NCBI RefSeq assembly: GCF_009189165.1
Contig: NZ_CP045118.1
Span: 3,162,001-3,226,000 of the forward strand
DNA from: Pseudomonas sp. SCB32
GTDB taxonomy: Bacteria > Pseudomonadota > Gammaproteobacteria > Pseudomonadales > Pseudomonadaceae
Length of the DNA stretch: 64,000 nucleotides
Direction: 5' to 3'
In this document: positions 17,613 to 50,594 of the stretch, piece by piece
Layout: each line of letters begins with the position of its first letter
Numbering within the stretch: the first letter of the stretch is position 1
The notes under the pieces: generated by a model
The model's database searches: none
The model's input: the letters and a program-made list of their open reading frames with translations, nothing else
Told to the model about the DNA's origin: nothing
Translations under genes and position numbers: made by a program

Positions 17613-18209
17613 ATGCCCTCCCCGACCTGCCCGCACCTGATCGGCGAACACGTCGAACTCCTTCCGCTGCGCACCGAACAGGCCGACGCCCTGCTCATGG
17701 CCGCCGCCGATGGCGCGCTGTGGAGCCTCAAGGTCACCGTGGTACCGGGGCCGGACAGCATCGCCAGCTATATCGCCAAGGCACTGGCCGGACTGGAAGC
17801 GGGGACGGTAATGCCCTTCGCCATTCTCGACCGGCACAGTGGCAGGATCGTCGGCAGCACGCGCTTCTGGAAGATCGACCCGGCCAACCGCAAGCTGGAA
17901 ATCGGCCATACCTGGCTGGCTCTGTCGGCGCAGCGCACGCCGATCAACACCGAGGCCAAGCTCCTGCTGCTGCGCCATGCCTTCGAGGTCATGAACTGCG
18001 TGCGGGTGCAATTCACCACCGACGAGCTGAATGAGAAGTCCCGCGCAGCGATCCTTCGCCTGGGCGCGGTTCAGGAAGGCATTGTCCGCCATGAACGGAT
18101 CATGCCTGACGGGCGCAAACGCAATTCGGTGCGTTTCAGCATCATCGACAGCGAATGGCCCGAGGTCAGGGGCCGACTGATCGCGCGCCTGGGGCTCACT
18201 CCAGGCTGA
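17613..18209 (+). CDS. GNAT-family N-acetyltransferase (RimJ/RimL-like)
   Basis: 198 residues. LIGEHVELLPLRTEQADALL opens a RimJ/RimL-type fold, with GRIVGSTRFWKIDPANRKLEIGHTWL as beta-4/5 and a C-terminal NEKSRAAILRLGAVQEG, the usual acetyl-CoA segment. No signal peptide. Substrate is not predictable; relatives acetylate protein N-termini or small amines. The start at 17613 (MPSPTCPHL) begins the fold. Its 3' end overlaps the convergent GlmU-like gene by 14 bp, so the two cannot share a terminator and may interfere in transcription. Confidence 0.88.
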   Translation: MPSPTCPHLIGEHVELLPLRTEQADALLMAAADGALWSLKVTVVPGPDSIASYIAKALAGLEAGTVMPFAILDRHSGRIVGSTRFWKIDPANRKLEIGHTWLALSAQRTPINTEAKLLLLRHAFEVMNCVRVQFTTDELNEKSRAAILRLGAVQEGIVRHERIMPDGRKRNSVRFSIIDSEWPEVRGRLIARLGLTPG

Positions 18210-19122
18210 TCGCCTCCAGCCGGCTGAAGGCGGGTACCCTGACGCCGGACGCCACCCGCACACCAGGGCCGAACACCACACAGGGCTCCACCAGCACGTC
18301 GGCATCCAGCTCGGTGTCGGCGCTGAAATACACCGATTGCGCATCGGCCAGGGTCACCCCGGCGCGCATCGCCTGCTGGCGACGGCGGCGCTGGAACACC
18401 TGCTCGGCGGCGTGCAGTTGCTCGCGATCATTGACGCCGAGGATGTCCTCTTCGTCCACCTCCACCGCCGTCACCAGCAGCCCCGCACGGTTCGCCACTT
18501 CCACCGCGTCGGTCAGGTAGTACTCGCCCTGGGCGTTGGCGTTGCCGATGCGTTCCAGCAACCACAGGCAATGATCGGCGCGCAGACCCATCACCCCGCC
18601 GTTGCACAAGCGCACCTGCAACTCCTCCTCGGTACAGTCCTTGGCTTCGCGGATGGCGCGCAGGTTGCCGTCTTCCACCAGCAATCGGCCGTAGCCGCCG
18701 GGCCGCTCAGTGGTGAATCCCGCCACAGCCACTGCCGCGCCGTCGATCAGCGCGGCACGCAGCCTGGCCAGGGTTTCGACGCTGACCAGTGGCGAGTCGC
18801 CAAACAACACCAGCACGCAGCCTTCGCCGTGCTCTTCCAGAACCCTGCGAGCAGCAAGCAGCGCGTGGGCGGTGCCCAGGCGCTCGCGCTGGACGAAGCG
18901 CCGTGCTCCCGGCGCATGCTCCGCCAGATACTCACCCACCGCGGGGGCGTCAGGCCCGTGCACCACCGCCACCTGGTTGACCCGCGCGGCCTCGCAGGTG
19001 GCCAGCACATGGCCAAGCAACGGCCGGTGGCCGACGCAATGCATTACCTTGGGCAGTGACGAACGCATGCGCGTGCCCTGCCCGGCGGCGAGAATCACCG
19101 CCAGAGTCGAGTAGCTATTCAT
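18196..19122 (-). CDS. GlmU-like UDP-sugar pyrophosphorylase lacking the acetyltransferase domain
   Basis: 308 residues. The uridylyltransferase signature LAAGQGTRM is at 11-19 followed by RSSLPKVMH; further GlmU-like blocks are RLGTAHALLAA, VLFGDSPLVSVETL, GGYGRLL, NANAQGEYYLTDAVEVA and EDILGVNDREQLH. A few hexapeptide-like turns (DADVLVEPCVVFGPGVRV) follow and then the protein stops, about 150 residues short of a housekeeping bifunctional GlmU (about 454). So it should make a UDP-sugar from a hexosamine 1-phosphate-like compound but cannot acetylate. It is the last gene of the leftward operon, 166 bp after the aldehyde dehydrogenase gene, alongside an AmgK-like kinase and a glycosyltransferase. 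The sugar is unknown. Confidence 0.88.
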   Translation of the reverse strand: MNSYSTLAVILAAGQGTRMRSSLPKVMHCVGHRPLLGHVLATCEAARVNQVAVVHGPDAPAVGEYLAEHAPGARRFVQRERLGTAHALLAARRVLEEHGEGCVLVLFGDSPLVSVETLARLRAALIDGAAVAVAGFTTERPGGYGRLLVEDGNLRAIREAKDCTEEELQVRLCNGGVMGLRADHCLWLLERIGNANAQGEYYLTDAVEVANRAGLLVTAVEVDEEDILGVNDREQLHAAEQVFQRRRRQQAMRAGVTLADAQSVYFSADTELDADVLVEPCVVFGPGVRVASGVRVPAFSRLEAISLE

Positions 19123-19288
19123 AGGCCCTCCTCGGCGCCTGTCCGGAATCGAGCCAGGTCGTGCCGCGGCACAGCAGGTGCGCCGCAGCGGCTCGAAAAA
19201 ACGGGCGCTGATTTACCACAGCCCAACCGCATGCCCTTGCGGACATGCGACGGCCTGCACGCGCCCCAACAGAACCTTGAACGGCTTC

Positions 19289-20803
19289 TCAGCCCTGGTA
19301 GAACACCTCGTCCCCGTAGGGGTACCACCAGGAGTGGATCTGCGGCTGGTGATCGATGATCACCATCTTCGAGCGGCGGAATGCATCCAGGCCCTGACGG
19401 CCCAGCTCACGGCCCATGCCGGACATCTTCCAGCCGCCGAAGGGCAAGGCGTCGTTGTCGATCAGCGGGTTGTTGACCCAGACCATGCCGGCTTCCAGGC
19501 GGTCGGCCGCCTCCATCGCCTCGGCCAGGTCGGTGGAGAACAGCGAGGCGCCCAGGCCGAAGGGTGAATCATTGGCCAGGCGCACGGCCTCGTCGAAGTC
19601 CTTCACCTTGCAGATTGCCGCCACCGGGCCGAAGCACTCCTCGTGGAAGATCGCCATGGCCGGGGTGACGTCGGTGAGGATGGTCGGCTCGTAGTACCAG
19701 CCCACCGGCAGTTGCGGCGGAATCCGCCCGCCGCAGACCAGCGTGGCGCCCTTGGCCACGGCATCGTCCACCAGGCGGATGACCTTGGCGCGGGCCGCTT
19801 CGCTGACCAACGGGCCGATCTCCGAGCGTTCCAGGCCATGGCCGATGCGCAACGCGCGGGTGCGCTCGGCGAAGCGGGCGACGAACGCGTCGTGAATCTC
19901 GTCGACGACGAAGAAGCGCTCGGCCGAGGTGCAGATCTGCCCCGTCAGGTGGAACGCCGCCGTCACCGCGCCGGCCGCCGCCACTTCCAGCGGCGCGTGG
20001 CGGGAGATGATCATCGGGTCGCTGCCACCCGCTTCGATCACCGCCGGTTTCATCCGTTCGGCGCAGGCCACTGCCACCGCCTTGCCGGCCGCCACGCTGC
20101 CGGTGAAGGCCACGGCGTGGGTGCGCTCGGACTGCACCAGGCGCTGCGCGGTGCTCGCGTCGCCCGGCACGCAGCTGACCATGCCCGCCGGCAGCACCTT
20201 GAAGTGCTCCATGAATTTCAGCGTGCACAGCGTGGTGCTTTCCGCCGGTTTGACGATGCAGGCGTTGCCGGCGGCCAGCGAGGCGGCCAGGGTCCAGCAC
20301 ATCAGCAGGATGGGGAAGTTGAACGGCATGATGTGCACGCTGACGCCATAGGGCTCGTAGCGCACATGCTGGAACGAGCCGAGCTGGGTGGTGCCGGCCA
20401 CCTTGCCGGCCTCGTCGCGAGCCATCTCGGCGTAATAGCGGAAGATCGGCGCGCAGTTGGCCAGCTCGCCCATGGCCTCGGGGAACGGCTTGCCCATCTC
20501 CAGGGTCATCAGCCGCGCCACTTCGCGGAGGGTCGCCTGGTCGGTCTCGATGGTGTTGGCCAACTGGTGGAGAATCGCCGCGCGGGATTTCGCATCCACG
20601 CGCTTCCACTCGCGCTGGGCGGCGTTGGCGGCGTCGATGGCGGCATCGACGTCCTCGGCGTCGCACAGGGCGATGCGGCCGACCGTGGTCAGGTCGGCGG
20701 GGTTGATGATGTCGCGCAGGCGGCTGCTCGTTGCAGCCTGGTAGTGCGGGCCGATGAAACGCAGGGGTGAATCGGGATGGAACGCGCTGTGAAACTCGGT
20801 CAT
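19289..20803 (-). CDS. NAD(P)-dependent aldehyde dehydrogenase
   Basis: 504 residues, full ALDH length. Asn162 in MPFNFPILL, general base Glu257 in VIEAGGSDPM and nucleophile Cys291 in TGQICTSAERFF are all present, as is FTGSVAAGK in the cofactor fold. The base motif EAGGSDP differs from the common ELGGK and is seen in SSADH-like and related subfamilies. A GGAG site lies before the ATG at 20803, 18 bp after the kinase gene, so they are cotranscribed. In an operon with a polyamine-type importer it may oxidise an amino aldehyde, but its substrate is inferred from context only. Confidence 0.92.
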   Translation of the reverse strand: MTEFHSAFHPDSPLRFIGPHYQAATSSRLRDIINPADLTTVGRIALCDAEDVDAAIDAANAAQREWKRVDAKSRAAILHQLANTIETDQATLREVARLMTLEMGKPFPEAMGELANCAPIFRYYAEMARDEAGKVAGTTQLGSFQHVRYEPYGVSVHIMPFNFPILLMCWTLAASLAAGNACIVKPAESTTLCTLKFMEHFKVLPAGMVSCVPGDASTAQRLVQSERTHAVAFTGSVAAGKAVAVACAERMKPAVIEAGGSDPMIISRHAPLEVAAAGAVTAAFHLTGQICTSAERFFVVDEIHDAFVARFAERTRALRIGHGLERSEIGPLVSEAARAKVIRLVDDAVAKGATLVCGGRIPPQLPVGWYYEPTILTDVTPAMAIFHEECFGPVAAICKVKDFDEAVRLANDSPFGLGASLFSTDLAEAMEAADRLEAGMVWVNNPLIDNDALPFGGWKMSGMGRELGRQGLDAFRRSKMVIIDHQPQIHSWWYPYGDEVFYQG

Positions 20804-20821
20804 GGAATGCTCCGCAAGGAT

Positions 20822-21853
20822 TCAGTGGGCGGCCAGGCGCTCGGCGAGCAGTTCGCCGTTCAGCGGCTGGCGCCAGGAAGGGAGTTCGGCATCGAGCAGG
20901 TCACGCAAGGGAGTCAGAGGCTCGCTGTGCAGCGCCCGCTGGAACAGTCCGAGCACCCGCGGCAGGTGTGCCAGGTAACCGGACTTGCCGTCGCGCCGGG
21001 CCAGGCGCACGAAGATGCCCAGCACCTTGGCGTGGCGCTGCGCGGCCAGCGCCTGGTAGTCGGCCATGAAGCGGCGGCCGGCGACTTCCGGACGCTGGCT
21101 CAGGTATTGAGTCAGCAGCGACACCCGCAGCGCCTCGGGCACATCGCGGCGGGCGTCTTCGAGTAGGGACATCAGGTCATAGGCGGGTGAGCCGCAGAGC
21201 GCATCCTGGAAATCCAGCAGGCCGCAGGCGGCGACACCTTCGCGACCGTCCAGCAGCATCAGGTTGTCGACGTGGTAGTCGCGCAGTACCAGCACCTCGC
21301 GGCGCATGGCGACTTCACGGCATGCCGTGGCGAAAGCCTCGAGGTAGGCCTCGCGCAGTCGCGCGGCGTGCTGCGCACCGACCAGTAACGGCGCATACCA
21401 GTCGATGAACAGCGCCGCCTCATCGCCCAGCTTCTGCCCGTCATACGCCGGCACGCCCTCGGCGGCCTGGGGGCCGGCCCGATGCAGGCGCACCAGGGCA
21501 TCCACGGCGAGGCGATACAGCGCCTCCTCGTCGTGGCCGGTGGCGAGCAACCGGGTATAGGTGGCATGACCGAAGTCTTCCACCAGCGCCAGGCCGAGCT
21601 CGACATCCGAGGCCAGTACCTTCGGCGCCGACAGCCCGCAGCCGCGCAGCAACTGCGCCACCCGCAGGTAAGGCGCCAGCGGCTCGGCGCCGGGCGGCGA
21701 ATCCATCAGCAGCAGGCCTTGCCCTTCCAGGCGGAAGTAGCGCCGGGCGGAGGCATCCGCCGGCAGCGCATGCAGAGGCCGGCCGGCATGGCCGCAGCCT
21801 GCGAGAAACATCTCGCGGGCTGCGGCACGGGTGGTTTCCAGGGTCAGGCTCAT
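20822..21853 (-). CDS. AmgK-like sugar kinase (APH fold)
   Basis: 343 residues, aminoglycoside-phosphotransferase fold. DASARRYFRLEGQGLLLMD (residues 33-51) matches the nucleotide-binding start of AmgK, the P. putida N-acetylmuramate/N-acetylglucosamine anomeric kinase. The catalytic loop RDYHVDNLML has Asp192, His194 and Asn197, and LDFQDALCGSPAYDLMSLL has the metal-binding Asp214; DFQDA-x-x-G is characteristic of AmgK. It starts 4 bp after the upstream cupin stop, so translation is probably coupled. A sugar 1-phosphate made here could feed the GlmU-like gene downstream. Choline or ethanolamine kinase activity is an alternative. This is not expected to be the cell-wall recycling AmgK, which sits beside murU. 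Confidence 0.85.
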   Translation of the reverse strand: MSLTLETTRAAAREMFLAGCGHAGRPLHALPADASARRYFRLEGQGLLLMDSPPGAEPLAPYLRVAQLLRGCGLSAPKVLASDVELGLALVEDFGHATYTRLLATGHDEEALYRLAVDALVRLHRAGPQAAEGVPAYDGQKLGDEAALFIDWYAPLLVGAQHAARLREAYLEAFATACREVAMRREVLVLRDYHVDNLMLLDGREGVAACGLLDFQDALCGSPAYDLMSLLEDARRDVPEALRVSLLTQYLSQRPEVAGRRFMADYQALAAQRHAKVLGIFVRLARRDGKSGYLAHLPRVLGLFQRALHSEPLTPLRDLLDAELPSWRQPLNGELLAERLAAH

Positions 21854-21857
21854 GGCA

Positions 21858-22202
21858 TCACCGAATCATGTAGACCTTTTTCACCGTCTCATGGACGGTG
21901 CACACGCCCTTCCAGTCCTTGGGGAAGAAGGCTGCGGTGTCCGGGGTGATCTCGATCACCTCGCCGGACTCGTGCACATAGGTGCAGCGGCCTTCGAGGA
22001 AGTGGCAGAACTCGTCGCTGGTGACGTGGCAGAACCACTTGCCCGGCGTGCAATGCCAGATACCGCATTCGGACTGGCCTTCCGGCCCCTTGTACAGGAC
22101 CACGCCGCTGACGCGGGATTCGCCCTCGAGCATGGTCGGGATCACGCCCCAGTCCTTGAGTTCGGTGACTTGCAGCGGGCGATGGATAACGGGGGTCTTC
22201 AT
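21858..22202 (-). CDS. Small cupin protein (DUF861/EutQ-like)
   Basis: 114 residues, a single cupin barrel. HVTSDEFCHFLEG is the first cupin motif with metal-type His/Glu, and a second half with ITPDTAAFFPKDWKGVCTVH follows. AGGAG precedes ATG 22202. It is a paralogue of the cupin encoded at 22364-22729: both share the ELCHF/EFCHF core, a tryptophan-rich PxxWxGxCTVH segment and a C-terminal YM. Single-domain cupins of this family often sit beside oxidases or transporters of amines. No enzymatic role can be assigned from the sequence. Confidence 0.85.
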   Translation of the reverse strand: MKTPVIHRPLQVTELKDWGVIPTMLEGESRVSGVVLYKGPEGQSECGIWHCTPGKWFCHVTSDEFCHFLEGRCTYVHESGEVIEITPDTAAFFPKDWKGVCTVHETVKKVYMIR

Positions 22203-22263
22203 TGTTCACTCCTGAATAAACGTCTTCATAAACTCGGGCCCGGCAATGGGCGCCCGAGTCAAC

Positions 22264-22351
22264 GTAGGGCGAATAACCGCTTGCGGTTATCCGCCGATGG
22301 ATTGGGCTGGAAATCGATGGCGGATAACGCTTGCAGCGTTATGCGCCCTAC
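22264..22351. repeat. Paired inverted intergenic repeat (GTAGGGCG family)
   Basis: A unit starting GTAGGGCGAATAACC and ending GGTTATCCGCC (22264-22295) is followed by its inverted partner GGCGGATAACGC...GCGCCCTAC (22319-22351). Each unit also contains a short internal hairpin (AACCGCTTGCGGTT, AACGCTTGCAGCGTT). A single unit of the same family is at 52955-52987. It sits between two genes of one operon, where it would form a strong mRNA stem-loop. Confidence 0.8.
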
Positions 22352-22363
22352 GAACCGAGCGGA

Positions 22364-22729
22364 TCACGCCAGCATGTAAAGGTTGCGAAGGGTGGTATGC
22401 ACGGTGCATTCGCCGGTCCAGCCGGCCGGGAACAGCACCAGGGTGTCGGGCTCCACCTCGATCACCTCGCCCGCGTCCGAGCGGTAGGTGGCGCGTCCGG
22501 CGACGAAGTGGCACAGCTCGTCGCGCGGGATCGACAACCGCCACCGGCCGGGGGTGCAGACCCACAAGCCGGTCTCGGGGCTGTTGTTCAGCCCCTTGAA
22601 CAGCAGGCGGCCGCTGGAGTGCGAGACGCCTTCGAGGGCGTCGGACTGCACGCCCCAGTCCACCAGGTCGTCGTAGTCGCGGGCGCCAACGATGTGCGGC
22701 GCGGTCGAATCGGACTTGAACTCAGGCAT
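22364..22729 (-). CDS. Small cupin protein, paralogue of the neighbouring cupin
   Basis: 121 residues. SIPRDELCHFVAGRATYRSD and VEPDTLVLFPAGWTGECTVH are the two cupin halves. Its ATG overlaps the end of the glycosyltransferase gene by 8 bp (22722-22729), a sign of translational coupling. The first 20 residues (MPEFKSDSTAPHIVGARD) are absent from the other cupin. Two diverged copies in one operon suggest either a heterodimer or two related ligands. The function is unknown. Confidence 0.85.
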   Translation of the reverse strand: MPEFKSDSTAPHIVGARDYDDLVDWGVQSDALEGVSHSSGRLLFKGLNNSPETGLWVCTPGRWRLSIPRDELCHFVAGRATYRSDAGEVIEVEPDTLVLFPAGWTGECTVHTTLRNLYMLA

Positions 22730-24008
22730 TGCTCATCACCTTGTGCAGAATCTGTGCAGCATCTTCCGGGCCCTTGCGGGAACGCATGTAAGTGCTGGTG
22801 CGTTGCAGGCGCTCACCCATGCGCGAATCGGTGAGCAGCTGGGCGAGGTTCCGCGCCAGGTCTTCCTCGCTCCAGTCGTAGCGGTCCATGCGCAGGCCGT
22901 GGCCGCTTTCCTGGGCGCGCATGGCGTTGTCGTGACCGTCCCAGACGTAGGGCATGACGATGGCCGGTTTGCCGAAGAACAGGCACTCGGTGAAGCTGTT
23001 GTTGCCGCCGTGGTGGATTACCGCGTCGACCTGGGCGATCACCGAGGGCTGCGGGTACCAGTTGGAGACGATCACGTTGTCCGGCAGCTCGGTGTACTTC
23101 TCCAGGTGCTCGCCGACGTTGAACAGCGCGCGGTATGGCAGCTTGCCGACGGCGGTGACCAGGCGCTTGAGCAGGTCCACGTCGCCCGAACCGAGGCTGC
23201 CGAAGCTCACGTAGAGCAGAGGCTTGTCGTTGTTCGCCTTGAACTGCGGGATGTCATACGGCTTGTCGGTACGCACGCAGCCCTGCAAGTAGTGGAACTG
23301 CCGGGCCGGCAGCGGATGGCGGCGATCGAACTTCACCGGGTCCGGGTACAGCAGCAGGTTCATGTAGGGCGACTCTTCGAAGAACACCCCCAGCGGATAC
23401 GGCCGCTCGCCGCACTGGCCGAGGAAGTCGTTGAAGTCGGCATGGATGGGCGCGATCACTTCCTCGAAGCGCTTCTGGAAGCGCGCGTGGCCGGCCTTGT
23501 CGTCCACGCTCATGCCCGACAGGTACGGCGGGATGTCCGGGTCGTGCACTTCGTTCTCCGAGCAGGAGATGATGCGCACCCAGGGCTTGCCGTACTGCTT
23601 GATGGCCGGGAAGAGGATCACGTTGTCGACGCAGATCAGGTCCGGCTTGATCTTGTCGAGGATCGCCGGCAGCTCCTTCTGCGCCCACTTGGAGGTGGAG
23701 ACGATGGCCTCCCAGCACTCCTTCACGTAGTTATCCAGCTGGTCGATCGGCGCCTTGCGGAAGTTGGGGATGTGGCCGTTGATGAAGTCGGTCCAGTAGC
23801 GCGCCATCTCCTCGGCCGGCATCGGCTCGGACATGTTCACGTAGTGTTCCTCGAAGCCGTAGGCCGAATAGACCCCGGTCATGCCCGGGTCGGTGAGGAA
23901 CACCGCCTTGTGCCCCAGCGCCTCGCAGGCCTGGGCGATGCCGACGGAGTTGAGGGCCGGGCCGTAGGCGGCCTCGGGGAAGAATGCGATGACTTTGCGT
24001 TCACTCAT
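22722..24008 (-). CDS. GT1-family glycosyltransferase (UGT/MGT-like), copy 1
   Basis: 428 residues, GT-B fold. The N-terminal domain opens IAFFPEAAYGPALNSVGIAQ; the C-terminal donor domain has LYVSFGSLGSGD, WYPQPSVIAQVDAVIHHGGN and VMPYVWDGHDNA, the nucleotide-sugar site of macrolide/UDP-glycosyltransferases. No membrane segment or signal peptide. An AGGAG site precedes ATG 24008, 34 bp after the ATPase gene. A second copy of identical length lies at 29152-30438 on the other strand. Donor is probably a UDP-hexose or UDP-hexosamine; the acceptor is unknown. Association with a polyamine-type importer, a kinase and a GlmU-like enzyme is unusual for this family. Confidence 0.9.
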   Translation of the reverse strand: MSERKVIAFFPEAAYGPALNSVGIAQACEALGHKAVFLTDPGMTGVYSAYGFEEHYVNMSEPMPAEEMARYWTDFINGHIPNFRKAPIDQLDNYVKECWEAIVSTSKWAQKELPAILDKIKPDLICVDNVILFPAIKQYGKPWVRIISCSENEVHDPDIPPYLSGMSVDDKAGHARFQKRFEEVIAPIHADFNDFLGQCGERPYPLGVFFEESPYMNLLLYPDPVKFDRRHPLPARQFHYLQGCVRTDKPYDIPQFKANNDKPLLYVSFGSLGSGDVDLLKRLVTAVGKLPYRALFNVGEHLEKYTELPDNVIVSNWYPQPSVIAQVDAVIHHGGNNSFTECLFFGKPAIVMPYVWDGHDNAMRAQESGHGLRMDRYDWSEEDLARNLAQLLTDSRMGERLQRTSTYMRSRKGPEDAAQILHKVMSNA

Positions 24009-24042
24009 GGTGCTCTCCTGTAGGTCTTGTTGTTCTAGGCAG

Positions 24043-25122
24043 TCAGTGAGTCAGCACGCGGGCATGCCGCGCATCCCAGCCCAGGCGCACCGGCATGCCG
24101 GCGGCAAGGCGCAAGAAGTCGTAGTCAGAAGACGGCACGCGGACGATCAGCGGCTTGCTTGAAAGCGCCGTGTTCACGTGCAGGTTGGTGTCCAGGCCGT
24201 GGTAGGCCACTTCGGCCACTTCTCCCTGGATCTGGTTGTCAGTGGCGGGAGTCGCGTCGGTGAGTACGCGCAAACGTTCCGGGCGCAGGGCCAGGGTCAC
24301 GCTTTCGGGGCTCGATTCGGCGGTGGTTTCGATATGCAGAATCTGCTCGCCGGCCTGCAGGCGGTTGGTGCCCACGCGGCGGCCGTCAATCAGGTTGCTG
24401 ACGCCGATGAAGTCGGCGACGAAGCGGTTGCCCGGGTTCTCGTACAGCTCGCTCGGGCTGCCGCACTGGCAGACCTTGCCGTCGCGCAGCACGGCCATGC
24501 GGTCGGACATGACCAGGGCTTCTTCCTGGTCGTGGGTGACCATGATGAAGGTGATGCCGCTCTCGAGCTGCAGACGCTTGAGTTCGAGCTGCATCTTCTC
24601 GCGCAGCTTCTTGTCCAGTGCGCCGAGCGGTTCGTCCAGCAGCAGCACGCGCGGACGCTTGACCAGCGCGCGGGCCAGGGCGACGCGCTGGCGCTGGCCG
24701 CCGGAGAGCTGGTCCGGGCGGCGGTTGGCCAGTTGGCCGAGCTGTGCGGTCTCCAATACCTGGTCCACGCGCTGGCGGATTTCGCTGGCCGGCAGCTTCT
24801 CCATCTCCAGGCCGTAGGCGATGTTGCTGCGCACGGTCATGTTGGGAAACAGCGCGTAGGACTGGAACATCAGGTTCAGCGGGCGCTTGTTCGGCGGCAG
24901 CGGCGAGATGTCCTGGCCGCCCAGATAGATGGCGCCGGAGGTCGGCGTCTCGAAGCCGGCGATCATCCGCATCAGGGTGGTCTTGCCGCAGCCGGAGGGG
25001 CCGAGCAGCGCGAAGAACTCGTTCTCGCGGATCGCCAGGGAAACCTGGTCCACGGCGGTCATACCCTCGCCATAGGATTTGCTCACCTGGTCCAGCACGA
25101 GCAGGTCGGAAGACTTATTCAT
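24043..25122 (-). CDS. ABC transporter ATPase, PotA-like
   Basis: 359 residues. Walker A LLGPSGCGKTT, signature LSGGQRQRV and Walker B LLLDEPLGALD are intact, with a C-terminal TOBE regulatory domain (about 270-359). It overlaps the upstream permease gene by 8 bp. It energises the importer formed with the two permeases and the binding protein; the arrangement is that of spermidine/putrescine-type (CUT1/POPT) systems. Confidence 0.95.
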   Translation of the reverse strand: MNKSSDLLVLDQVSKSYGEGMTAVDQVSLAIRENEFFALLGPSGCGKTTLMRMIAGFETPTSGAIYLGGQDISPLPPNKRPLNLMFQSYALFPNMTVRSNIAYGLEMEKLPASEIRQRVDQVLETAQLGQLANRRPDQLSGGQRQRVALARALVKRPRVLLLDEPLGALDKKLREKMQLELKRLQLESGITFIMVTHDQEEALVMSDRMAVLRDGKVCQCGSPSELYENPGNRFVADFIGVSNLIDGRRVGTNRLQAGEQILHIETTAESSPESVTLALRPERLRVLTDATPATDNQIQGEVAEVAYHGLDTNLHVNTALSSKPLIVRVPSSDYDFLRLAAGMPVRLGWDARHARVLTH

Positions 25123-25921
25123 GGGCTTTGGGCACCTTGTTCAGACGTTGGGAAGCGAACAGCGCGGTGAAGCTGACCAGCATCACCAGGGTGGCGAGGG
25201 CATTGATTTCAGGGGTCACGCCGAAGCGGATCATCGAGTAGATCTGCATCGGCAGCGTGGTAGAGGCGCTGCCGGAGCCGGCGTTGAAGAAGGCGATGAT
25301 GAATTCGTCCACCGACAGGGTGAACGCCAGCAGCCCGCCCGCCAGCACGCCGGGGAAGATCGCCGGCAGCAGCACCCGGCGCGCGGTGGTGAACCAGCCG
25401 GCGCCCAGGTCGATGCTGGCTTCGAGGATCGAGTAATCGAAGTGCTTGAGCCGGGTGCGCACCACCGCGCAGACGAAGGCGATGTTGAACACCACGTGAC
25501 TGAGGATGATGGAGTGCAGCCCCAGGCTCATCTTCAGCAGGTTGAAGAAGCTCAGCAGCGCGATGGCCAGGACGATGTCGGGGATGATCATCGGCGCCAT
25601 CAGCAAGGTGTCGGCGAGGTTGCCGCCCTTCTTGCCGCCGCTGCTACGCGAGCGCATCTCCACGCCCAGGGCGAGCAGCGTGCCGAGCATGCAGGCGATG
25701 ACGGTCGAGGTCAGCGCAACGATCAGGGTGTTCAGCGCGGCGTGCTGGATCGAGGTATTGGCCAGGAGCTTGGCGTACCACTTCAGCGAAGCGCCGCCCC
25801 AGGCGGTGGGCAGGCCGCTGGCGTTGAACGACAGCAGGATCAGCACCAGGATCGGTACATAAAGGAAGGCGTACACCAGCCAGAGGTGCGCACCCAGGGC
25901 GATACCGGAAGAATTACGCAT
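25115..25921 (-). CDS. ABC transporter permease, PotC-like
   Basis: 268 residues with about six membrane segments. The EAA loop that docks the ATPase reads EASIDLGAGWFTTARRVLLP. It begins 8 bp inside the preceding permease gene and ends 8 bp inside the ATPase gene, a tightly coupled run. Pairs with the PotB-like subunit to import a small, probably amine-containing, solute. Confidence 0.94.
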   Translation of the reverse strand: MRNSSGIALGAHLWLVYAFLYVPILVLILLSFNASGLPTAWGGASLKWYAKLLANTSIQHAALNTLIVALTSTVIACMLGTLLALGVEMRSRSSGGKKGGNLADTLLMAPMIIPDIVLAIALLSFFNLLKMSLGLHSIILSHVVFNIAFVCAVVRTRLKHFDYSILEASIDLGAGWFTTARRVLLPAIFPGVLAGGLLAFTLSVDEFIIAFFNAGSGSASTTLPMQIYSMIRFGVTPEINALATLVMLVSFTALFASQRLNKVPKAHE

Positions 25922-26786
25922 GGCGTTCGCCCTCCGCGCCCTGGGCCCGGCGCGAAACCAGGGCCTGGATGAACAGCAGCAGCAACATGATGCCGATCAG
26001 GAAGAAGCTCAGCGCCGAGCCGAAGGGCCAGTCCCGCGCGGTGAGGAACTGCGCGTAGATCAGGTTGCCGACCATCTGCACCTGCTTGCCGCCGAGCAGG
26101 TCGGCGGTGATGAAGTTGCCGATCGACAGCACGAAGACGAACACCGCGCCGGCCGCAACGCCTGGCACCGACAGCGGCAGGATCACCCGGCGGAAGGTGG
26201 TCCAGCCGGAGGCGCCGAGGTCCCGCGAGGCTTCCCAGAGTTCGTTGTCGATGCGCGACAGCGAGCTGTAGATAGCGAGGATGACGAAGGGGATGTAGTT
26301 GTAGACCAGCCCCAGCACTACGGTGGCGTCGGTGTAGAGCAGGTTGATCGGCTCGCCGCTGTAGCCCAGCAGGTTGAACAGGCGGTTGAGCAGACCCTCG
26401 CGGTTGAGCAGGACGATCCAGGCGTAGGTGCGGATCAGGTAGTTGCTCCAGAACGGCAGCATCACCAGGAACAGGTAGGCCCCCTGCCGACGCGGCGTGG
26501 CGCGGGTGATGGCGTAGGCCGCCGGGTAGCCGATGAGCACCGCGAAGAGCATCGCCAGGCCGGCGATCTTCGCCGAGCGCAGGAGGATGTCGAGGTACAG
26601 CGGGTCCACCGCGCGGCGGTAGTTCTCCCAGGTGAACACATAGTCGATGCCGCCGTAGGCACCGCGTTCGAGGAAGCTGTAGAGCAATACCAGCAGGCAC
26701 GGCAGCAGCAGGAACAGGGCCAGCCAGCCCAGACCGGGCGCGAGCAGCCAGGCCGACAGTTTTCGGTCGGCGGACAAAGCGGTCAT
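25914..26786 (-). CDS. ABC transporter permease, PotB-like
   Basis: 290 residues from ATG 26786, which follows GGGGGAA; a TTG at 26801 would add MGELR. Six hydrophobic segments and the EAA loop EASRDLGASGWTTFRRVILP identify the first permease of a POPT-type importer. The 97-bp gap to the binding-protein gene (26787-26883) may hold a processing or attenuation site that lets the binding protein be made in excess. Confidence 0.94.
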   Translation of the reverse strand: MTALSADRKLSAWLLAPGLGWLALFLLLPCLLVLLYSFLERGAYGGIDYVFTWENYRRAVDPLYLDILLRSAKIAGLAMLFAVLIGYPAAYAITRATPRRQGAYLFLVMLPFWSNYLIRTYAWIVLLNREGLLNRLFNLLGYSGEPINLLYTDATVVLGLVYNYIPFVILAIYSSLSRIDNELWEASRDLGASGWTTFRRVILPLSVPGVAAGAVFVFVLSIGNFITADLLGGKQVQMVGNLIYAQFLTARDWPFGSALSFFLIGIMLLLLFIQALVSRRAQGAEGERHA

Positions 26787-26883
26787 GCGTAGTTCCCCCA
26801 ACCCCGCGAGGCGGAGTGGTTCAGGGTTGTCGTATCGAGTGAGAAGCCGGGGCGCGATTGCAGCGCCCCGCTGACAGGGGCTA

Positions 26884-27933
26884 CTACTGCGCCGCCATGA
26901 TTTCCGTCACAGCGCGGGTATAGGCCTTCTGCGTGGAACCGCCGACGTCACGCAACTGCTGCTGCTTGACCAGCTCGGCCGGCGTGGTGGTGAGGTTGGG
27001 GTACTTGGCCAGCAGGTCGGGCTTGAGCGTGGCCATCGCCGCCTGGTTGGGCACCTTGTAGAGGATGTTCTCCGCGACCCATGCGTGGTTGGCCGGTTCG
27101 AGCATGTAGTTGATGAAGCGGTAGGCCGCCTCGGGGTTCTTCGAGCTCTTGAGCACCACCATGGTGTCCACCCAGAGGTCGGAGCCCTCTTTCGGCACGA
27201 CGAACTTGATCGAGTCGTTGGCCTGGGTGCCGTAGTTACACCAGCCGTCCCAGGCGTGGGCCATCAGCGCCTCGCCCGAGGCGAGCTTGGAGTAGAAGGT
27301 GGTGTCGTCGAAGGACAGCAGGCGCTTCTTGGTGGTGATCAACTGGTCGCGCACCGCATTGATCTGGTCCGGATTGCCGTCGTTCACCGACCAACCGTTG
27401 GCGAGGAAGCCCGCGCCCAGCAGCCAGCGATCGGTGGCGAGCATGGTGGTCTTGCCCTTGAGCGCATCGGACGGCTTGAGCAGGTCGCTCCAGCTCGACG
27501 GGGCCGGGTTGACCTTGTCGGCGCGATAGCAGATGCCGGTGGTGCCCCAGGTGTAGGGCACGGAGAAGTGGTTGCCCGGGTCGTACTCGAGCTTCTGCGC
27601 TTCGGGGTAGAGGTTCTTGAGGTTCGGCACCTTGGCCGGATCGATGTCGGCGAGCAGGCCCTGCTTGTGCAGGATCTCGGCGAAAGGAGAGGAAACGAAC
27701 ACCACGTCGTAACCTTCGCCGCCGGAGGCCATGAGCTTGCCCATGATCTCCTCGTTGGTGGCGTGGAGCGACTTGTCGGCTTCAAGGCCCGTGGCCTTCT
27801 GGAACTTCTCGAGGGTATCCGGGGCCATGTAGCCGTCCCAGATGGAGATCACGAGGTCCTTGGCGCTGGCAGTTGTGGCCGACAGCGTAAGCGCGAGGGT
27901 AGCCCCCGCGTAGAGCATGGTCTTCAGCTTCAT
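26884..27933 (-). CDS. Periplasmic polyamine-type binding protein (PotD/SpuD family)
   Basis: 349 residues. Signal peptide MKLKTMLYAGATLALTLSAT, cleavage near ASA-KDL. The mature part has VISIWDGYMAPDTLEKFQKA, an extracellular solute-binding family 1 start, and YDVVFVSSPFAEILHKQGLL and GTTGICYRADKV in the hinge. ATG 27933 has TAGGTG 6 bp upstream; a GTG at 27942 is an alternative. First gene of the long leftward operon, divergent from the GntR gene. The aromatic and acidic residues that bind polyamines in PotD (for example W in IWDGY) are partly recognisable, but the ligand cannot be named. Confidence 0.93.
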   Translation of the reverse strand: MKLKTMLYAGATLALTLSATTASAKDLVISIWDGYMAPDTLEKFQKATGLEADKSLHATNEEIMGKLMASGGEGYDVVFVSSPFAEILHKQGLLADIDPAKVPNLKNLYPEAQKLEYDPGNHFSVPYTWGTTGICYRADKVNPAPSSWSDLLKPSDALKGKTTMLATDRWLLGAGFLANGWSVNDGNPDQINAVRDQLITTKKRLLSFDDTTFYSKLASGEALMAHAWDGWCNYGTQANDSIKFVVPKEGSDLWVDTMVVLKSSKNPEAAYRFINYMLEPANHAWVAENILYKVPNQAAMATLKPDLLAKYPNLTTTPAELVKQQQLRDVGGSTQKAYTRAVTEIMAAQ

Positions 27934-27961
27934 GTTGCGCACCTAACGATGGTTGTTGTTG

Positions 27962-28013
27962 TTTCGAAGGCAGCGGATCGAAAAGCGTGTTACATGTCTT
28001 TTTTTCAAAATAA
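27962..28013. promoter_or_regulatory. Operator-like sites in the GntR/importer divergent region
   Basis: An inverted repeat TTTCGA (27962-27967) and TCGAAA (27978-27983) with a 10-bp spacer is followed by an A+T-rich tract TCTTTTTTTCAAAATAAAT (about 27997-28014). A similar T/A tract occurs upstream of the second glycosyltransferase (29071-29090). The tract is well below local GC content and lies where the leftward promoter is expected. Binding by the GntR protein is inference. Confidence 0.35.
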
Positions 28014-28121
28014 ATACCGAACGAATGGCGAAGTCAACAACTTCCCGCATCCTTGTTGCACCACCCGCCCTGTGGCATAAGGGGCTCGCATCGCTGAAAC
28101 CCCTGTCGGAGAGAGAACGGT

Positions 28122-29054
28122 TTGAGCAAGGACATCGAAAAAAAACCGCGCACCAATCATCTGGAATTGGCCCGACGGATCATCGAACACGCCCAGGACA
28201 GTGGCCTGGGTGAAGGTGCCGCACTGTCCGAGCAGCAGTTGGCGCGCACTTTCGGTGTGTCGCGCACGCTGATCCGTGCCGGCCTCGACCTGCTGCTGGA
28301 GCAGCAACTGGTGGCCCACGAGCCGGGCAAGGGCTATCGCCTGTGTGCCGACCCGTCCGCCCAGGTGCTGGGCCCCGCCCTGCCCCAGGCCGAGGAACAG
28401 GCCCTGGCCGCCTCGGTGTTGCGCGACCGCATGGCCGGCCGGCTGGGCAACAGCCTCAGTGCCAGCGAACTGATGCGCCGCTACGACATCAATCGCGCTG
28501 CCGCGCAGAAGGTGCTGGCGCAGCTCAGCGAAGACCAGGTGCTGGAACGCGGCGCCGGGCAGAGCTGGTCGTTCCGCCCGCTGCTGAACAACCTCGCGGC
28601 ACTGGAAGACAGCCTGCGCTACCGGTTGATCCTCGAGCCCGAAGCCCTCCTCGCCCCCGGCTTCGACCCGGACCTGGCGCGCCTGGCGCTGCTCCGTGGC
28701 GCCATGGAAGAGCTACTGGCGGTGCCAATCGAGCGCTTCGACGTGGTGCAGTTCCGCGAGCTGGATATCAGCTTCCACGAGCTGATCGCCCTGGGCTGTG
28801 GCAACCGCTTCGTCGGTGATGCGCTGCTGCAGCACCAACGCCTGCGCCGCCTGCCCAACCTGCTGCCGATGGTCAGCGTGCACCGTTTGCAGGAAGCGCT
28901 GCGCGAGCATTTGCGAATCATCGAGCAGATCGAACGCGGCCAGCTGGAAGTCGCCGCGGACCTGATGCGCCTGCACCTGCGGCTGTCCGCGGCGCAGCGT
29001 CCGCAGACGGCCAACCGCGGAATTCCGCAGTCGTTTGCCGGGACACGCCGGTAA
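28122..29054 (+). CDS. GntR-family regulator with FCD-like ligand domain
   Basis: 310 residues from TTG 28122 after GGAGAGAAC. A first winged helix (about 15-76, ALSEQQLARTFGVSRTLIRA) is followed by a second HTH-like segment (about 100-150, SASELMRRYDINRAAAQKVL) and an all-helical FCD ligand domain with the metal/ligand His-type helix (DISFHELIALGCGNRF, LREHLRIIEQIERGQ). A tandem second helix-turn-helix is unusual for GntR proteins. Divergent from the importer operon and upstream of the second glycosyltransferase, so it probably represses or activates both in response to a small acid or amine. Confidence 0.88.
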   Translation: MSKDIEKKPRTNHLELARRIIEHAQDSGLGEGAALSEQQLARTFGVSRTLIRAGLDLLLEQQLVAHEPGKGYRLCADPSAQVLGPALPQAEEQALAASVLRDRMAGRLGNSLSASELMRRYDINRAAAQKVLAQLSEDQVLERGAGQSWSFRPLLNNLAALEDSLRYRLILEPEALLAPGFDPDLARLALLRGAMEELLAVPIERFDVVQFRELDISFHELIALGCGNRFVGDALLQHQRLRRLPNLLPMVSVHRLQEALREHLRIIEQIERGQLEVAADLMRLHLRLSAAQRPQTANRGIPQSFAGTRR

Positions 29055-29070
29055 ATTTTTTCGAGCACGG

Positions 29071-29090
29071 TGTTTTTTTTATCAAAAAAA
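29071..29090. promoter_or_regulatory. A+T-rich symmetric tract upstream of glycosyltransferase 2
   Basis: A run of eight T, ATC and seven A (29073-29090) lies between the GntR stop and the glycosyltransferase start, a T-run/A-run dyad without GC stem. It resembles the tract in the importer promoter (27997-28014). It could be a promoter UP element, a regulator site or part of a bidirectional terminator. Confidence 0.35.
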
Positions 29091-29151
29091 TGCACTATCC
29101 ATTTTACGCAGTGCCCTTACAGCACCCGTGACCCGCACCGTGGATGTGCCC

Positions 29152-30438
29152 ATGACGCAAAGAACCAGAACCATCGCCTTCTTCCCTGAAGCCAGCTTCG
29201 GCGCCGCGCTGAACTGCATCGGCATCGCCCAGGCGCTGCGCGAACTCGGCGCGCGCCCGGTGTTCATCTGCCACTCGCACTTCCAGGGCATCTTTGCCGA
29301 GTACGGCTTCGCCGAGTATCCGCTACAGCTGGACTCACCGCTGTCCGCCGCTGACCACCAGCACTACTGGGAACGCTTCATCGAGCGCAACGTGCCGTAC
29401 TTCGACCAGACGCCGCTCGAGCAGATCGACAGCTACGTGGCGCCGGCCTGGGAAGCCATCATCGACACCGCCATCGAGTCGGAGCGACCGCTTCAGCAGC
29501 TGCTCGCACGGCTCAAGCCGGACGCCATCGTGCTGGACAACGTGGTCGCCTTCCCGGCCATCGCCGCCGCCGGCTGCCCCTGGGTGCGCATGGTTTCCTG
29601 CGCCGAGACCGAACTGCCTGACCCGGCGGTGCCGCCCTACCTGTCCGGGGCCAGCAGCCAGGACCCGCAGGCCTGCGCGGCCTTCCGCGAGCGCTACCTG
29701 CAGGCGGTCAAACCCATCCACGACCGCTTCGCCCGCTTCCTCGCCGAGTGCGGCCACCCCGCCCTGCCCCCCGGCCAGTTCCTTGAGGACTCGCCCTGGC
29801 TGAACCTGCTGCTGTCGCCGACACCGGTACGCTACGAGCGGACCAACCCGCTGCCGGCCGAACGCTACCTGTACCTCGACGGCTGCGTGCGCAGCGAGGC
29901 GCCCTACATCCCGCCGCAGTTCCCCCGGCACAACGACGCACCGCTGATCTACGTGAGCTTCGGCAGCCTCGGTGCCGCCGATGTGGCGATGATGCGCCGG
30001 CTGATCGATGCCCTGGCGCAACTGCCCTACCGCTTCCTGATCAACGTCGGTGCCTACCGCGAGCACTACGACACGGTGCCGGACAACGTCTACCTCGACA
30101 GCTGGTTCCCGCAGCCAGTGGTGCTGCGCGAATGCCAGCTGTTCGTCCACCACGGTGGCAACAACAGCTTCTGCGAAGCGCTCTACCATGGGCTGCCGTC
30201 GGTGATCATCCCCTACTGCTGGGACGGCCACGACAATGCCCGACACGCCGAGGAAGTCGGTGTGGCGCGCTACCTGCCGCGCTACCAGGACCCGATTGCA
30301 GCACTGCCCGAAGCCCTGGCCGAACTGCTCGCCGACCAGGCCATGGGCCATCGTCTCGCCGCCGTGCGCGAGCAGATGCAGGCCTCGCGTGGCACCGAAA
30401 TGGCAGCACGAGCCATCCTCGGCATCTGCGCCGACTGA
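29152..30438 (+). CDS. GT1-family glycosyltransferase (UGT/MGT-like), copy 2
   Basis: 428 residues, exactly the length of copy 1, with matching blocks throughout: IAFFPEASFGAALNCIGIAQ, LDNVVAFPAI, YVSFGSLGAADV, FVHHGGNNSF and IPYCWDGHDNARHAEE. The start at 29152 (MTQRTRTIAFF) aligns with copy 1. It is transcribed in the opposite direction, downstream of the GntR gene. A 96-bp A+T-rich gap suggests its own promoter. Two diverged copies in one locus imply two acceptors, two sugars, or a heterodimer. Donor and acceptor are unknown. Confidence 0.9.
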   Translation: MTQRTRTIAFFPEASFGAALNCIGIAQALRELGARPVFICHSHFQGIFAEYGFAEYPLQLDSPLSAADHQHYWERFIERNVPYFDQTPLEQIDSYVAPAWEAIIDTAIESERPLQQLLARLKPDAIVLDNVVAFPAIAAAGCPWVRMVSCAETELPDPAVPPYLSGASSQDPQACAAFRERYLQAVKPIHDRFARFLAECGHPALPPGQFLEDSPWLNLLLSPTPVRYERTNPLPAERYLYLDGCVRSEAPYIPPQFPRHNDAPLIYVSFGSLGAADVAMMRRLIDALAQLPYRFLINVGAYREHYDTVPDNVYLDSWFPQPVVLRECQLFVHHGGNNSFCEALYHGLPSVIIPYCWDGHDNARHAEEVGVARYLPRYQDPIAALPEALAELLADQAMGHRLAAVREQMQASRGTEMAARAILGICAD

Positions 30439-46161: not shown

Positions 46162-47634
46162 TTATTTGATGTACCAACCCCAAGGCTGGTCGCTGAGGTA
46201 CTCGGTGACCTGCTTGGTCTCCAGATAGTTGTCCAGCCCCCACACGCCCAGCTCGCGGCCGATGCCGCTCTGCTTGTAGCCGCCCCAGGGCGCCTGGGTG
46301 AAGGTCGGCTGCGAGCAGTTGACCCAGACGATTCCGGCGCGCAGGCCACGGCTCACCCGCTGGCAACGCGCCGGGTCGGCGGACATCACCGCCGCCGCCA
46401 GGCCGAACTGGCTGTCGTTCGCCAGGCGCAGTGCCTCGGCTTCGTCCTTGAAGCGGCGGACGGCGAGGACCGGGCCGAAGATTTCCTCGCGCCACAGGGC
46501 ACTCTCCAGCGGCGCGTCGATGAATACCGTCGGTTCGACGAACCAGCCCTTCTCGCGATGGGCCGGGCGCTTGCCGCCAGTGGCCAGCTTCGCGCCGTCG
46601 CGCACGCCGGCCTCGATGGCCTGCAGCACCTTGGCATGTTGCCCGGCGCTGACCAGCGGGCCGAGCAGGACGCCCGGTTCCAGGCCATTGCCGATAGTGA
46701 TGCGGCGCGTCTCTTCCACCAGTCGCTCCACCAGCCGGTCGTGCAGGCCATCCTGCACCAGCAGTCGCGAAGTGGCGCTGCACACCTGGCCCTGGTTCCA
46801 GAAGATGCCGAACAGAATCCACTCCACGGCGGCTTCGACATCAGCATCATCGAACACGATGAAGGCCGACTTGCCGCCCAGCTCCAGGCTGACGTTCTTG
46901 ATGTCCTGGGCGGCCGCCTGCATGATCGCGCGCCCGGTCGGCACGCTGCCGGTGAAGGCCAGCTTGTCCACGCCCGGATGCGCCGAGAGCGGCGAACCAG
47001 CCTCTCGACCGAGACCGGTGACCACGTTGAGCACGCCCTCGGGCAGGCCCACGGCGTCGGCGGCGGCGGCCAGTTCCAAGGCGGTCAGCGGAGTCAGTTC
47101 GGAAGGCTTGAGCACCGCGGTGCAGCCTGCGGCCAGCGCCGGCGCGACCTTCCACGACGCCATCAGCAACGGGTAGTTCCACGGGATGATCTGCCCGGCC
47201 ACTCCCACCGGCTCGCGCAGCACGCGGCAGGCGAAGCGCTCGTCCGGCAGCGCGACCACTTCACCCTCGCCGTTCAGCCCTTCGGCCAGCTCGGCGTAGT
47301 AATCGAAGCAGCCGATGGCGTCATCGATATCCCACTGCGCCTCGGGAAGCGGCTTGCCGTTGTCCTGCACTTCCAGGCAGGCCAGGTCCTCGCGACGGCC
47401 ACGCAGGTTGTCGGCGATGGCGCGCAGGTAGCCGGCGCGCTCCTTGCCCGTGCTGCGGCCCCACTCGCCTTCATCGAAAGCACGGCGGGCGGACTGCACG
47501 GCACGATCGACATCCTCGCCAGTGGCGGCGGCGACCTCGGTCAGCACGGCTTCGCTGGAAGGTTCGTATACCTCGAAGCGGCCGCCCTGAGCGGGCGCCC
47601 GCCATTGGCCATCGATGTAGAGCTGGTCGCGCAT
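46162..47634 (-). CDS. NAD-dependent aldehyde dehydrogenase (betaine-aldehyde-DH-like)
   Basis: 490 residues from ATG 47634 (AGGAG upstream); the frame stays open upstream to 47994 but this is excluded. IIPWNYPLLMASWKVAPALA holds the catalytic Asn, SLELGGKSAFIVFDD the base, and NQGQVCSATSRLLVQDG the nucleophile Cys; the C-terminus APWGGYKQSGIGRELG is the BetB/aminoaldehyde-type tail. It would oxidise an amino aldehyde to an acid, possibly downstream of the DAO-type oxidase at 48838. It is the only gene of this transcription unit. Confidence 0.93.
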   Translation of the reverse strand: MRDQLYIDGQWRAPAQGGRFEVYEPSSEAVLTEVAAATGEDVDRAVQSARRAFDEGEWGRSTGKERAGYLRAIADNLRGRREDLACLEVQDNGKPLPEAQWDIDDAIGCFDYYAELAEGLNGEGEVVALPDERFACRVLREPVGVAGQIIPWNYPLLMASWKVAPALAAGCTAVLKPSELTPLTALELAAAADAVGLPEGVLNVVTGLGREAGSPLSAHPGVDKLAFTGSVPTGRAIMQAAAQDIKNVSLELGGKSAFIVFDDADVEAAVEWILFGIFWNQGQVCSATSRLLVQDGLHDRLVERLVEETRRITIGNGLEPGVLLGPLVSAGQHAKVLQAIEAGVRDGAKLATGGKRPAHREKGWFVEPTVFIDAPLESALWREEIFGPVLAVRRFKDEAEALRLANDSQFGLAAAVMSADPARCQRVSRGLRAGIVWVNCSQPTFTQAPWGGYKQSGIGRELGVWGLDNYLETKQVTEYLSDQPWGWYIK

Positions 47635-47844: not shown

Positions 47845-47857
47845 AAAAGCGGCCCGA

Positions 47858-50223: not shown

Positions 50224-50234
50224 TGGAGAACCCC

Positions 50235-50594
50235 ATGTCCAGCCTGCCCCGCCACGTCATCGACTTCGCCAACCCCGACCTCGCCCCGCAGGAACGCGAG
50301 ATCAACGATCCGGCCATCGTCGATGCGCCGTACCAGAGCCGCAGCTGGCGGCACTTCAGCGCTCCGGAAAAGAACGCCATCGCTGGCATCTGGGAAGCCG
50401 GCGTGCACCTGGAGCGCTGCGAGTGCGACTACGACGAGCTGTGCCACATTCTCGAAGGCACCGTGCGCCTGACCGACGCGGACGGCGTGGCGAAGACCTT
50501 CGGGCCGGGGGACTCCTTCGTGGTGGCGGCGGGCTTCAAGGGCACCTGGGAGAACCTCACGCCGGTGCGCAAGGTGTATTTCATTCTCGGCTGA
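50235..50594 (+). CDS. Small cupin protein (DUF861-like)
   Basis: 119 residues from ATG 50235, which has GGAG 8 bp upstream; an ATG at 50223 overlaps the oxidase stop. ERCECDYDELCHILEGTVRL is the first cupin motif and FGPGDSFVVAAGFKGTWENL the second. It is a third member of the kind found twice in the glycosyltransferase operon. In several Pseudomonas loci such cupins accompany DAO-type oxidases, but no activity is established here. Confidence 0.85.
   Translation: MSSLPRHVIDFANPDLAPQEREINDPAIVDAPYQSRSWRHFSAPEKNAIAGIWEAGVHLERCECDYDELCHILEGTVRLTDADGVAKTFGPGDSFVVAAGFKGTWENLTPVRKVYFILG

Follow-up and report, generated by a model that had tools for sequence, protein, structure and literature searches.

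Introduction

Why should a Pot-type importer be encoded together with two glycosyltransferases (GTs), cupins and a sugar kinase? This question is raised by a locus of Pseudomonas sp. SCB32, which lies in a stretch of 64,000 nucleotides (nt), hereafter called the window, at positions 3162001-3226000 of a single 6.3-Mb contig. A sequence-only reading of the window had proposed that the kinase and a GlmU-like uridylyltransferase supply a uridine diphosphate (UDP)-sugar, which the GTs attach to an imported amine or its metabolite. Here, we report that these genes form a genuine, conserved module of patchy distribution. Its genes are linked and co-occur, its importer has an invariant binding pocket, and its two GTs do not have the usual catalytic base of GT1 enzymes. 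As the interpretation we prefer, at a probability of roughly 0.35, the module may serve the catabolism of an imported amine via a glycosylated intermediate, spread horizontally and with recycling of the sugar.

Results

A conserved gene set around a Pot-type importer

The operon region contains the following features.

29152..30438, plus strand: GT_B, second GT1-fold glycosyltransferase, 428 aa, in a frame open from 29035
28122..29054, plus strand: GntR/FCD transcription regulator (Pfam GntR and FCD), divergent from the importer operon
27943..28121, no strand: divergent intergenic region, probable promoter/operator, with TTGAC and CTTATG-like blocks conserved in Pseudomonas
26884..27942, minus strand: Pot-type periplasmic substrate-binding protein (SBP), pocket residues invariant in 67 sequences
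25914..26801, minus strand: PotB-like permease (profile matches)
25115..25921, minus strand: PotC-like permease, with an 8-nt overlap with each neighbour gene
24043..25122, minus strand: PotA-like ATPase, 375 bits against a potA subfamily cut-off of 356
22722..24008, minus strand: GT_A, GT1-fold glycosyltransferase, 428 aa, Pro17 for the canonical catalytic His and Asp-Gly for Asp-Gln
22364..22729, minus strand: Cupin_3 protein 1 (cup1), Cupin_3 match, in 61/78 loci
21858..22202, minus strand: Cupin_3 protein 2 (cup2), Cupin_3 match, the most constant partner of GT_A (74/76 loci)
20822..21853, minus strand: AmgK-like sugar kinase (APH fold), 239.8 bits to AmgK model NF045698 (cut-off 500)
19289..20803, minus strand: aldehyde dehydrogenase 1 (ALDH), Aldedh 498 bits, in 56/65 loci
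18196..19122, minus strand: GlmU-like uridylyltransferase domain, 308 aa, without acetyltransferase domain, an optional member

All genes that had been named beforehand (importer, two GTs, cupins, kinase, ALDH, truncated GlmU and GntR) are thus present. For the wider comparison, the best 80 of at least 571 confirmed GT_A relatives from a scan of genome contigs were used, a sample biased to close relatives. Presence was counted by tblastn with twelve window proteins against the 80 loci, and only loci with enough flank were counted; gene calls were set aside for the counts, since the window-trained caller missed genes elsewhere and the self-trained one mis-frames some GC-rich loci. The recurrent layout across the 80 loci is GT_B, GntR, SBP-PotB-PotC-PotA, GT_A, cupins, (kinase) and ALDH, and it was seen in Pseudomonas, Rhizobiaceae, Roseobacteraceae, other alphaproteobacteria and one gammaproteobacterial metagenome-assembled genome. 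GT_A relatives of 93-95% identity belong to Pseudomonas multiresinivorans, P. nitroreducens and other Pseudomonas strains. The layout is not due to chance, as it is found again at GT_A identities of 66-95%. Upstream of GT_A, PotA was found in 65/78, SBP in 63/71, GntR in 58/69 and GT_B in 55/68 loci, and downstream of it cup1 in 61/78, cup2 (within 1.6 kb) in 74/76 and ALDH (within 4.2 kb) in 56/65 loci. The kinase follows in 35/74 loci, that is 25/27 from Pseudomonas and 10/47 others, and the GlmU-like gene (within 6.5 kb) in 13/59, that is 12/26 and 1/33, with one more (L047) at 6.6 kb. The constant core is therefore GT_A with cup2, and the sugar-activation genes are optional. The claim that importer, GTs, cupins and ALDH are linked is borne out across these loci, and for the kinase it holds in Pseudomonas and some alphaproteobacteria.

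Co-occurrence was also counted in whole genomes. Of 25 genomes from the genus, 17 have GT_A (92-100% identity) and also a GT_B relative (in G021 divided between two contigs). A kinase of the operon type (77-100%) occurs in 17/17 GT_A-positive and 0/8 GT_A-negative genomes, as the expected co-occurrence would have it; the GlmU-like gene (70-100%), however, falls short of it, with 5/17 GT_A-positive and 0/8 GT_A-negative genomes. These 5/17 genomes and 13/59 loci rule it out as a core member. GT_A-type matches occur in 20/298 genomes of the family sample, of which 17 belong to the genus of the window, and in 8/398 genomes of the phylum sample, of which 4 do. Such a patchy distribution is as expected for an accessory trait that moves between lineages.

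Three relatives have other surroundings. On a Streptomyces plasmid, the neighbours of the relative are unlike the set; in two more actinobacterial records, the corresponding stretch is unannotated. In a Pseudomonas locus without importer genes beside GT_A (L065), an arginase-family gene (13574-14530) stands behind GT_A-cup2-ALDH. On a Pseudomonas frederiksbergensis plasmid (L123, 8264-9004), a broken GT_B relative lies in pieces behind alpha/beta-hydrolase and PAAR genes, with the type VI secretion gene tssM further on.

The binding pocket of the importer

The importer has a Pot-type SBP, two permeases and an ATPase, that is all four subunits of PotABCD; only PotA scores above its NCBIfam cut-off. 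The SBP is closest by sequence to PotD/PotF-type proteins, but it differs from PotD in its pocket. In the HMMER alignment to PotD (1pot), Gly37, Thr170 and Trp173 of the SBP stand at Glu36, Asp168 and Glu171, so that the acids anchoring both polyamine ends are missing, whereas W231, D259 and Y295 are the kept equivalents of PotD W229, D257 and Y293. We assumed the residue numbers of PotD and their roles in polyamine anchoring. All six positions are identical in 67/67 sequences from alpha- and gammaproteobacterial orthologs. A further invariant residue, Trp234, stands where PotD has Ser and PotF has Asp.

On these residues, the ligand would be one conserved compound that carries a single amine and is non-cationic at its opposite end, and not spermidine or putrescine. 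Polyamines as plain substrate were rejected on the three missing acids. Uptake of an ordinary diamine by this importer is unlikely. Trp173 and Trp234, next to the kept Asp/Trp/Tyr amine site, could also accommodate one end of a ligand as a stacked sugar or ring, and a salvage kinase is present; the importer might therefore take up an already glycosylated amine, which the cell splits, with the kinase and the GlmU-like protein salvaging the sugar and the GTs rearranging or reversing the linkage. We consider this quite improbable, as the set shows no glycosidase, cleavage of a glycoside by two GTs would be peculiar, and most rhizobial loci keep the importer without the kinase.

Glycosyltransferases without the usual catalytic histidine

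GT_A and GT_B are 45% identical over their full length. GT_A has a UDPGT/EryCIII-like C-terminal domain, and both proteins keep the GT-B fold and the HHGGNN donor motif, with a conserved Glu12. For residue counts, copies with a query cover of 85% or less, with a stop, or below the identity cut were dropped first. The usual GT1 catalytic His after strand 1 was found in 0/132 GT sequences: its position is Pro (Pro17) in 85/86 and Met in 1/86 of the GT_A sequences, and Ala or Ser in 46/46 of the GT_B sequences, while the spider-mite enzyme UGT203A2, taken for comparison, has the His. In the donor motif of GT_A, Asp-Gly replaces Asp-Gln. A tree of 137 GT sequences shows GT_B as one clade (support 1.0) nested within GT_A, so that GT_A is not a clean clade apart from GT_B.

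The solved proteins nearest to GT_A are spider-mite UGT203A2 (7lvy, 7mco) and UGT202A2, the latter solved with flavonoids; 7lvy, 7mco and 6pnt are the structures closest to it (22722-24008). Spider-mite UGTs are genes of bacterial origin. With these GT1/UDPGT enzymes, the GTs of the module share the full-length GT-B fold and the HGGNN donor motif; in contrast, the catalytic His is missing, Asp-Gly replaces Asp-Gln, acids are conserved in the N-domain, and the genes lie in a bacterial import operon.

Two other explanations can be weighed here. First, GT_A and GT_B may no longer be glycosyltransferases and may bind a nucleotide sugar for another reaction or for regulation. The replaced His in all sequences, the Asp-Gly at the donor end and a poor prediction of loop 15-17 in the structure model of GT_A would agree with such a role. 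However, the HHGGNN motif, the GT-B fold and Glu12 are kept, three actinobacterial relatives (35-38% identity) also have Pro at the His position but retain Asp-Gln, and some GT1 enzymes use other catalytic bases, and we regard this explanation as highly improbable. Second, the GTs may conjugate the imported amine or a toxic aminoaldehyde as a side branch for detoxification or storage, with the kinase and the GlmU-like protein topping up the UDP-sugar pool. The spider-mite UGTs as nearest solved relatives, and the absence of the kinase from 39/74 loci, speak for it. On the other hand, no pair is as constant as GT_A with cup2, GT_A lies behind the importer genes and GT_B is paired with the regulator, and a dedicated sugar kinase would better fit a stoichiometric flux of free sugar; we therefore hold detoxification or storage to be unlikely, though worth keeping in mind.

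Sugar activation by the kinase and the GlmU-like protein

At E 0.001, the only NCBIfam models matched by the operon kinase are the two AmgK models, with 239.8 bits for NF045698 (cut-off 500) and 154.3 bits for NF045759 (cut-off 550), both below the cut-off. The AmgK of the genome itself (at L150), used as a control, is also under both cut-offs, with 341 bits for NF045759 and 135 bits for NF045698. The two kinases thus have reverse model preferences, and NF045698 is the Caulobacter-type AmgK model. Together with the many alphaproteobacterial loci, these scores would fit a transfer into Pseudomonas. A choline or amino-alcohol kinase, the case that would have spoken against the sugar idea, was not among the matches. 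D192-x-H194...N197 and D217 are at least 98% conserved in 36 sequences, and Asp192, Asn197 and Asp217, which we take to be the catalytic residues of the APH fold, are shared with the genome's own AmgK. As for the GlmU-like protein, GlmU structures match it, and it is 38% identical to the genome's own GlmU over 292 residues with the signature segments of the uridylyltransferase domain kept; its best match to GlmU reaches no further than position 304 of 453, and the acetyltransferase half is missing.

In some strains, the module thus resembles AmgK-MurU recycling, in which an AmgK-like kinase works with a sugar-1-phosphate uridylyltransferase. It differs in that the kinase is paired with only the N-terminal half of a GlmU and that both are encoded in an operon for amine import, while the genome's own AmgK is located elsewhere with a MurU-like frame, seen by eye, behind it.

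The best support for the sugar-activation idea comes from two related archaea. Fifteen plasmid records have a match, the archaeal ones being from Natrialba magadii and Natronorubrum aibiense (two), with GT_A relatives of 58% and 56% identity, respectively. Their gene order is the GT_A relative, one cupin and ALDH, followed by a ROK kinase on the opposite strand and a mutase. The ROK kinase (that of Natrialba was scanned) is glucokinase-like and below the cut-off, and the best model of the mutase is archaeal phosphoglucosamine mutase, with 288 and 292 bits against a cut-off of 439, which makes it GlmM-like. A Pot-type importer, DAO oxidases and an aminotransferase-family gene lie nearby. A kinase with a mutase gives the same type of product as an anomeric kinase, a sugar 1-phosphate, and would thus be its non-homologous replacement.

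Alternatively, the sugar-activation half may be incidental, with the GlmU-like protein as a passenger and the kinase acting on the imported compound rather than on a sugar. The GlmU-like gene is found in only 5/17 genus genomes, the operon kinase is under both AmgK cut-offs, and all 25/25 genus genomes have both a second kinase elsewhere (34-41% identical, with AmgK as the best match in the window genome) and another GlmU match (37-43% identity, frame of 462-497 aa). However, the genome's own AmgK also stays below its cut-off (341 of 550), the GlmU-like gene stands 1.5-1.7 kb behind the kinase in 5/5 genus genomes, a space that fits ALDH, and haloarchaea carry a different sugar kinase with a mutase in that place. 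An incidental role is hence doubtful, yet a serious possibility. The proposed supply of UDP-sugar by kinase and uridylyltransferase survives in part: the AmgK-only matches, the kept GlmU segments and the haloarchaeal pair are in its favour, but the GlmU-like protein appears to be an optional helper (5/17 genomes, 13/59 loci), and the association of kinase and GTs holds for Pseudomonas and a few further lineages, with the kinase in only 10/47 loci outside Pseudomonas.

An oxidase module that co-occurs with the operon

The range 18196..30438 of the sequence-only reading proved incomplete, as it leaves out an amine-oxidase module at 46-51 kb of the window. This module (46162-50594), 16-20 kb from the operon, consists of four genes.

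46162..47634, minus strand: aldehyde dehydrogenase 2 (ALDH2), with 68% identity to the ALDH2 that lies downstream in the L046 locus
47858..48685, minus strand: regulator, fusion of a SnoaL-like and an AraC-type DNA-binding domain, relatives in L048 and L103
48838..50223, plus strand: DAO-family amine oxidase, dependent on flavin adenine dinucleotide (FAD), with 70% identity to the L048 oxidase that lies near GT_B
50223..50594, plus strand: Cupin_3 protein 3, overlapping the end of the oxidase gene, relatives of 62-82%

The FAD oxidase is present in 15/17 GT_A-positive versus 0/8 GT_A-negative genomes (E 1e-80; p = 4e-5), and by coordinates it lies more than 1 Mb from GT_A in G017. Across loci, the accessory genes are the oxidase (58-72% to the L048 query), a saccharopine-dehydrogenase-like (SDH-like) enzyme (73-97% to the L091 query) and ALDH2, which were found in 17, 12 and 29, respectively, of the 51 loci that have 9 kb or more of flank to either side; in three of the 29 ALDH2 loci (L043, L077, L104) the match reaches only 33-41%. 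No locus (0/80) has both the oxidase and the SDH-like enzyme. Outside Pseudomonas, the oxidase is found in 6/9 loci with the kinase versus 1/20 others (Fisher p = 0.001, with kinship ignored). An oxidase beside the operon in L103, only 28% identical to that of the window, was left out as an ortholog. Relatives of Cupin_3 protein 3 (62-82%) are in 15/80 loci, each also with the oxidase. The oxidation step missing from the earlier range would be supplied by this module. Aminophosphonate oxidation was rejected, as the best NCBIfam model of the oxidase, Phn_aa_oxid, reaches 223 bits versus a cut-off of 633, and ALDH2 was dropped as a specific marker, being present whether or not GT_A is.

The SnoaL-AraC regulator (47858-48685), divergent from the amine oxidase, is of an unusual type and has relatives in only 2/80 loci (L048, 61%; L103, 48%). 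Further on, window positions 53099-59553 hold a histone-deacetylase-type amidohydrolase, an M24 peptidase and a second Pot-type importer. The best NCBIfam match of the peptidase is ectoine hydrolase DoeA (222 bits versus a cut-off of 575), and relatives of the amidohydrolase (75-76%) and the peptidase (84-85%) lie just beyond GT_B in L053 and L057.

Operon structure

For GT_B, a start at 29152 (428 aa) is likelier than one at 29035. The description of the genes as one leftward run needs two corrections: the GlmU-like gene, of all members the least conserved, lies 166 nt past the ALDH stop, and a 161-nt gap (22203-22363) splits cup1 from cup2 and contains an imperfect inverted repeat, by eye similar to a repetitive extragenic palindrome. 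A terminator between ALDH and the GlmU-like gene seemed plausible by eye but was rejected, as the scan listed none there and gave 4 hits in the region, fewer than the shuffled mean of 6.8. In 24 aligned Pseudomonas intergenic regions, the TTGAC and CTTATG-like blocks are conserved within the part of the alignment listed, and a generic promoter scan found no site in 27943..28121. Anti-phage defence was also considered, and none of the 6 proteins scanned versus PADLOC matched.

Discussion

In the pathway that we prefer, the Pot-type importer would bring in one particular amine-bearing compound, not an ordinary diamine. With a UDP-sugar as donor, GT_A would add a sugar to it, most likely a hexose or an N-acetylhexosamine, and GT_B would perhaps act at another position or on a later intermediate. 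The FAD amine oxidase (in rhizobia, the SDH-like enzyme) and one or two ALDHs would oxidise the protected molecule to an acid. The sugar would then be released, possibly by the cupins, and recycled: the AmgK-like kinase may make a sugar 1-phosphate, and the GlmU-like protein, or otherwise a housekeeping enzyme, may make the UDP-sugar, while in haloarchaea the ROK kinase and the mutase may do the first recycling step. We infer every reaction, the order of the steps, the sugar and the substrate.

The closest comparison is the Puu pathway, in which a gamma-glutamyl group protects putrescine during oxidation. The module is similar to it in its importer, FAD amine oxidase and aldehyde dehydrogenase and, by analogy, in a removable group on the amine; the difference is that it has two GTs, cupins, a sugar kinase and an SBP without the canonical polyamine-binding acids. 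Neither a gamma-glutamylpolyamine synthetase nor a hydrolase was found among the genes of the set, for which a part of the window frames was scanned. A glutamine-synthetase-like gene is in the flanks of 3/51 full-flank loci, and genes of both types are in the Natrialba neighbourhood. A more specific form of the idea is a glycosyl-protecting-group cycle, in which the His-less GT1 enzymes N-glycosylate the amine, oxidation follows, the cupins cut the sugar off, and the kinase and uridylyltransferase (in archaea, kinase and mutase) re-activate it; we judge this form improbable.

Several points weigh against the preferred pathway. First, the binding pocket argues against ordinary polyamines. Second, the GTs are without the catalytic His, so their putative activity on any acceptor is unproven. 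Third, sugar release by a cupin is guesswork, and no glycosidase was seen among the genes of the set; cup2 has a well-predicted AlphaFold model (predicted local distance difference test, pLDDT, 96), and its nearest solved folds, the DUF861 protein 3bcw and then EutQ, do not settle its function. Fourth, with the kinase in 10/47 loci outside Pseudomonas and the GlmU-like gene in 13/59 overall, recycling is not universal. Fifth, G002 and G005 have GT_A and the kinase and no oxidase, and ALDH2 matches occur in 22/25 genomes regardless of GT_A, four GT_A-negative ones at 75-76%. Finally, in agreement with the earlier statement that no pathway of such composition is described, the literature searched gave no description of the gene set, and hence no experimental support.

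In conclusion, new here are the His-less GTs, the invariant non-PotD pocket, the co-occurring oxidase module and the archaeal kinase-mutase route. GT1-fold glycosyltransferases are usually seen as biosynthetic or detoxifying, and if a widely exchanged operon couples two such enzymes with an importer, an amine oxidase and a sugar kinase, glycosylation would become part of catabolism. A large family for which annotation often stops at nucleotide-sugar binding would also gain a function, and one would have to ask what takes the place of the textbook catalytic base in GT1-type enzymes of this kind. As the pocket is invariant across the compared alpha- and gammaproteobacterial orthologs, one ligand could define the whole family. 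If true, the glycosyl cycle would add a sugar-based solution to the one that gamma-glutamylation provides for the same problem.

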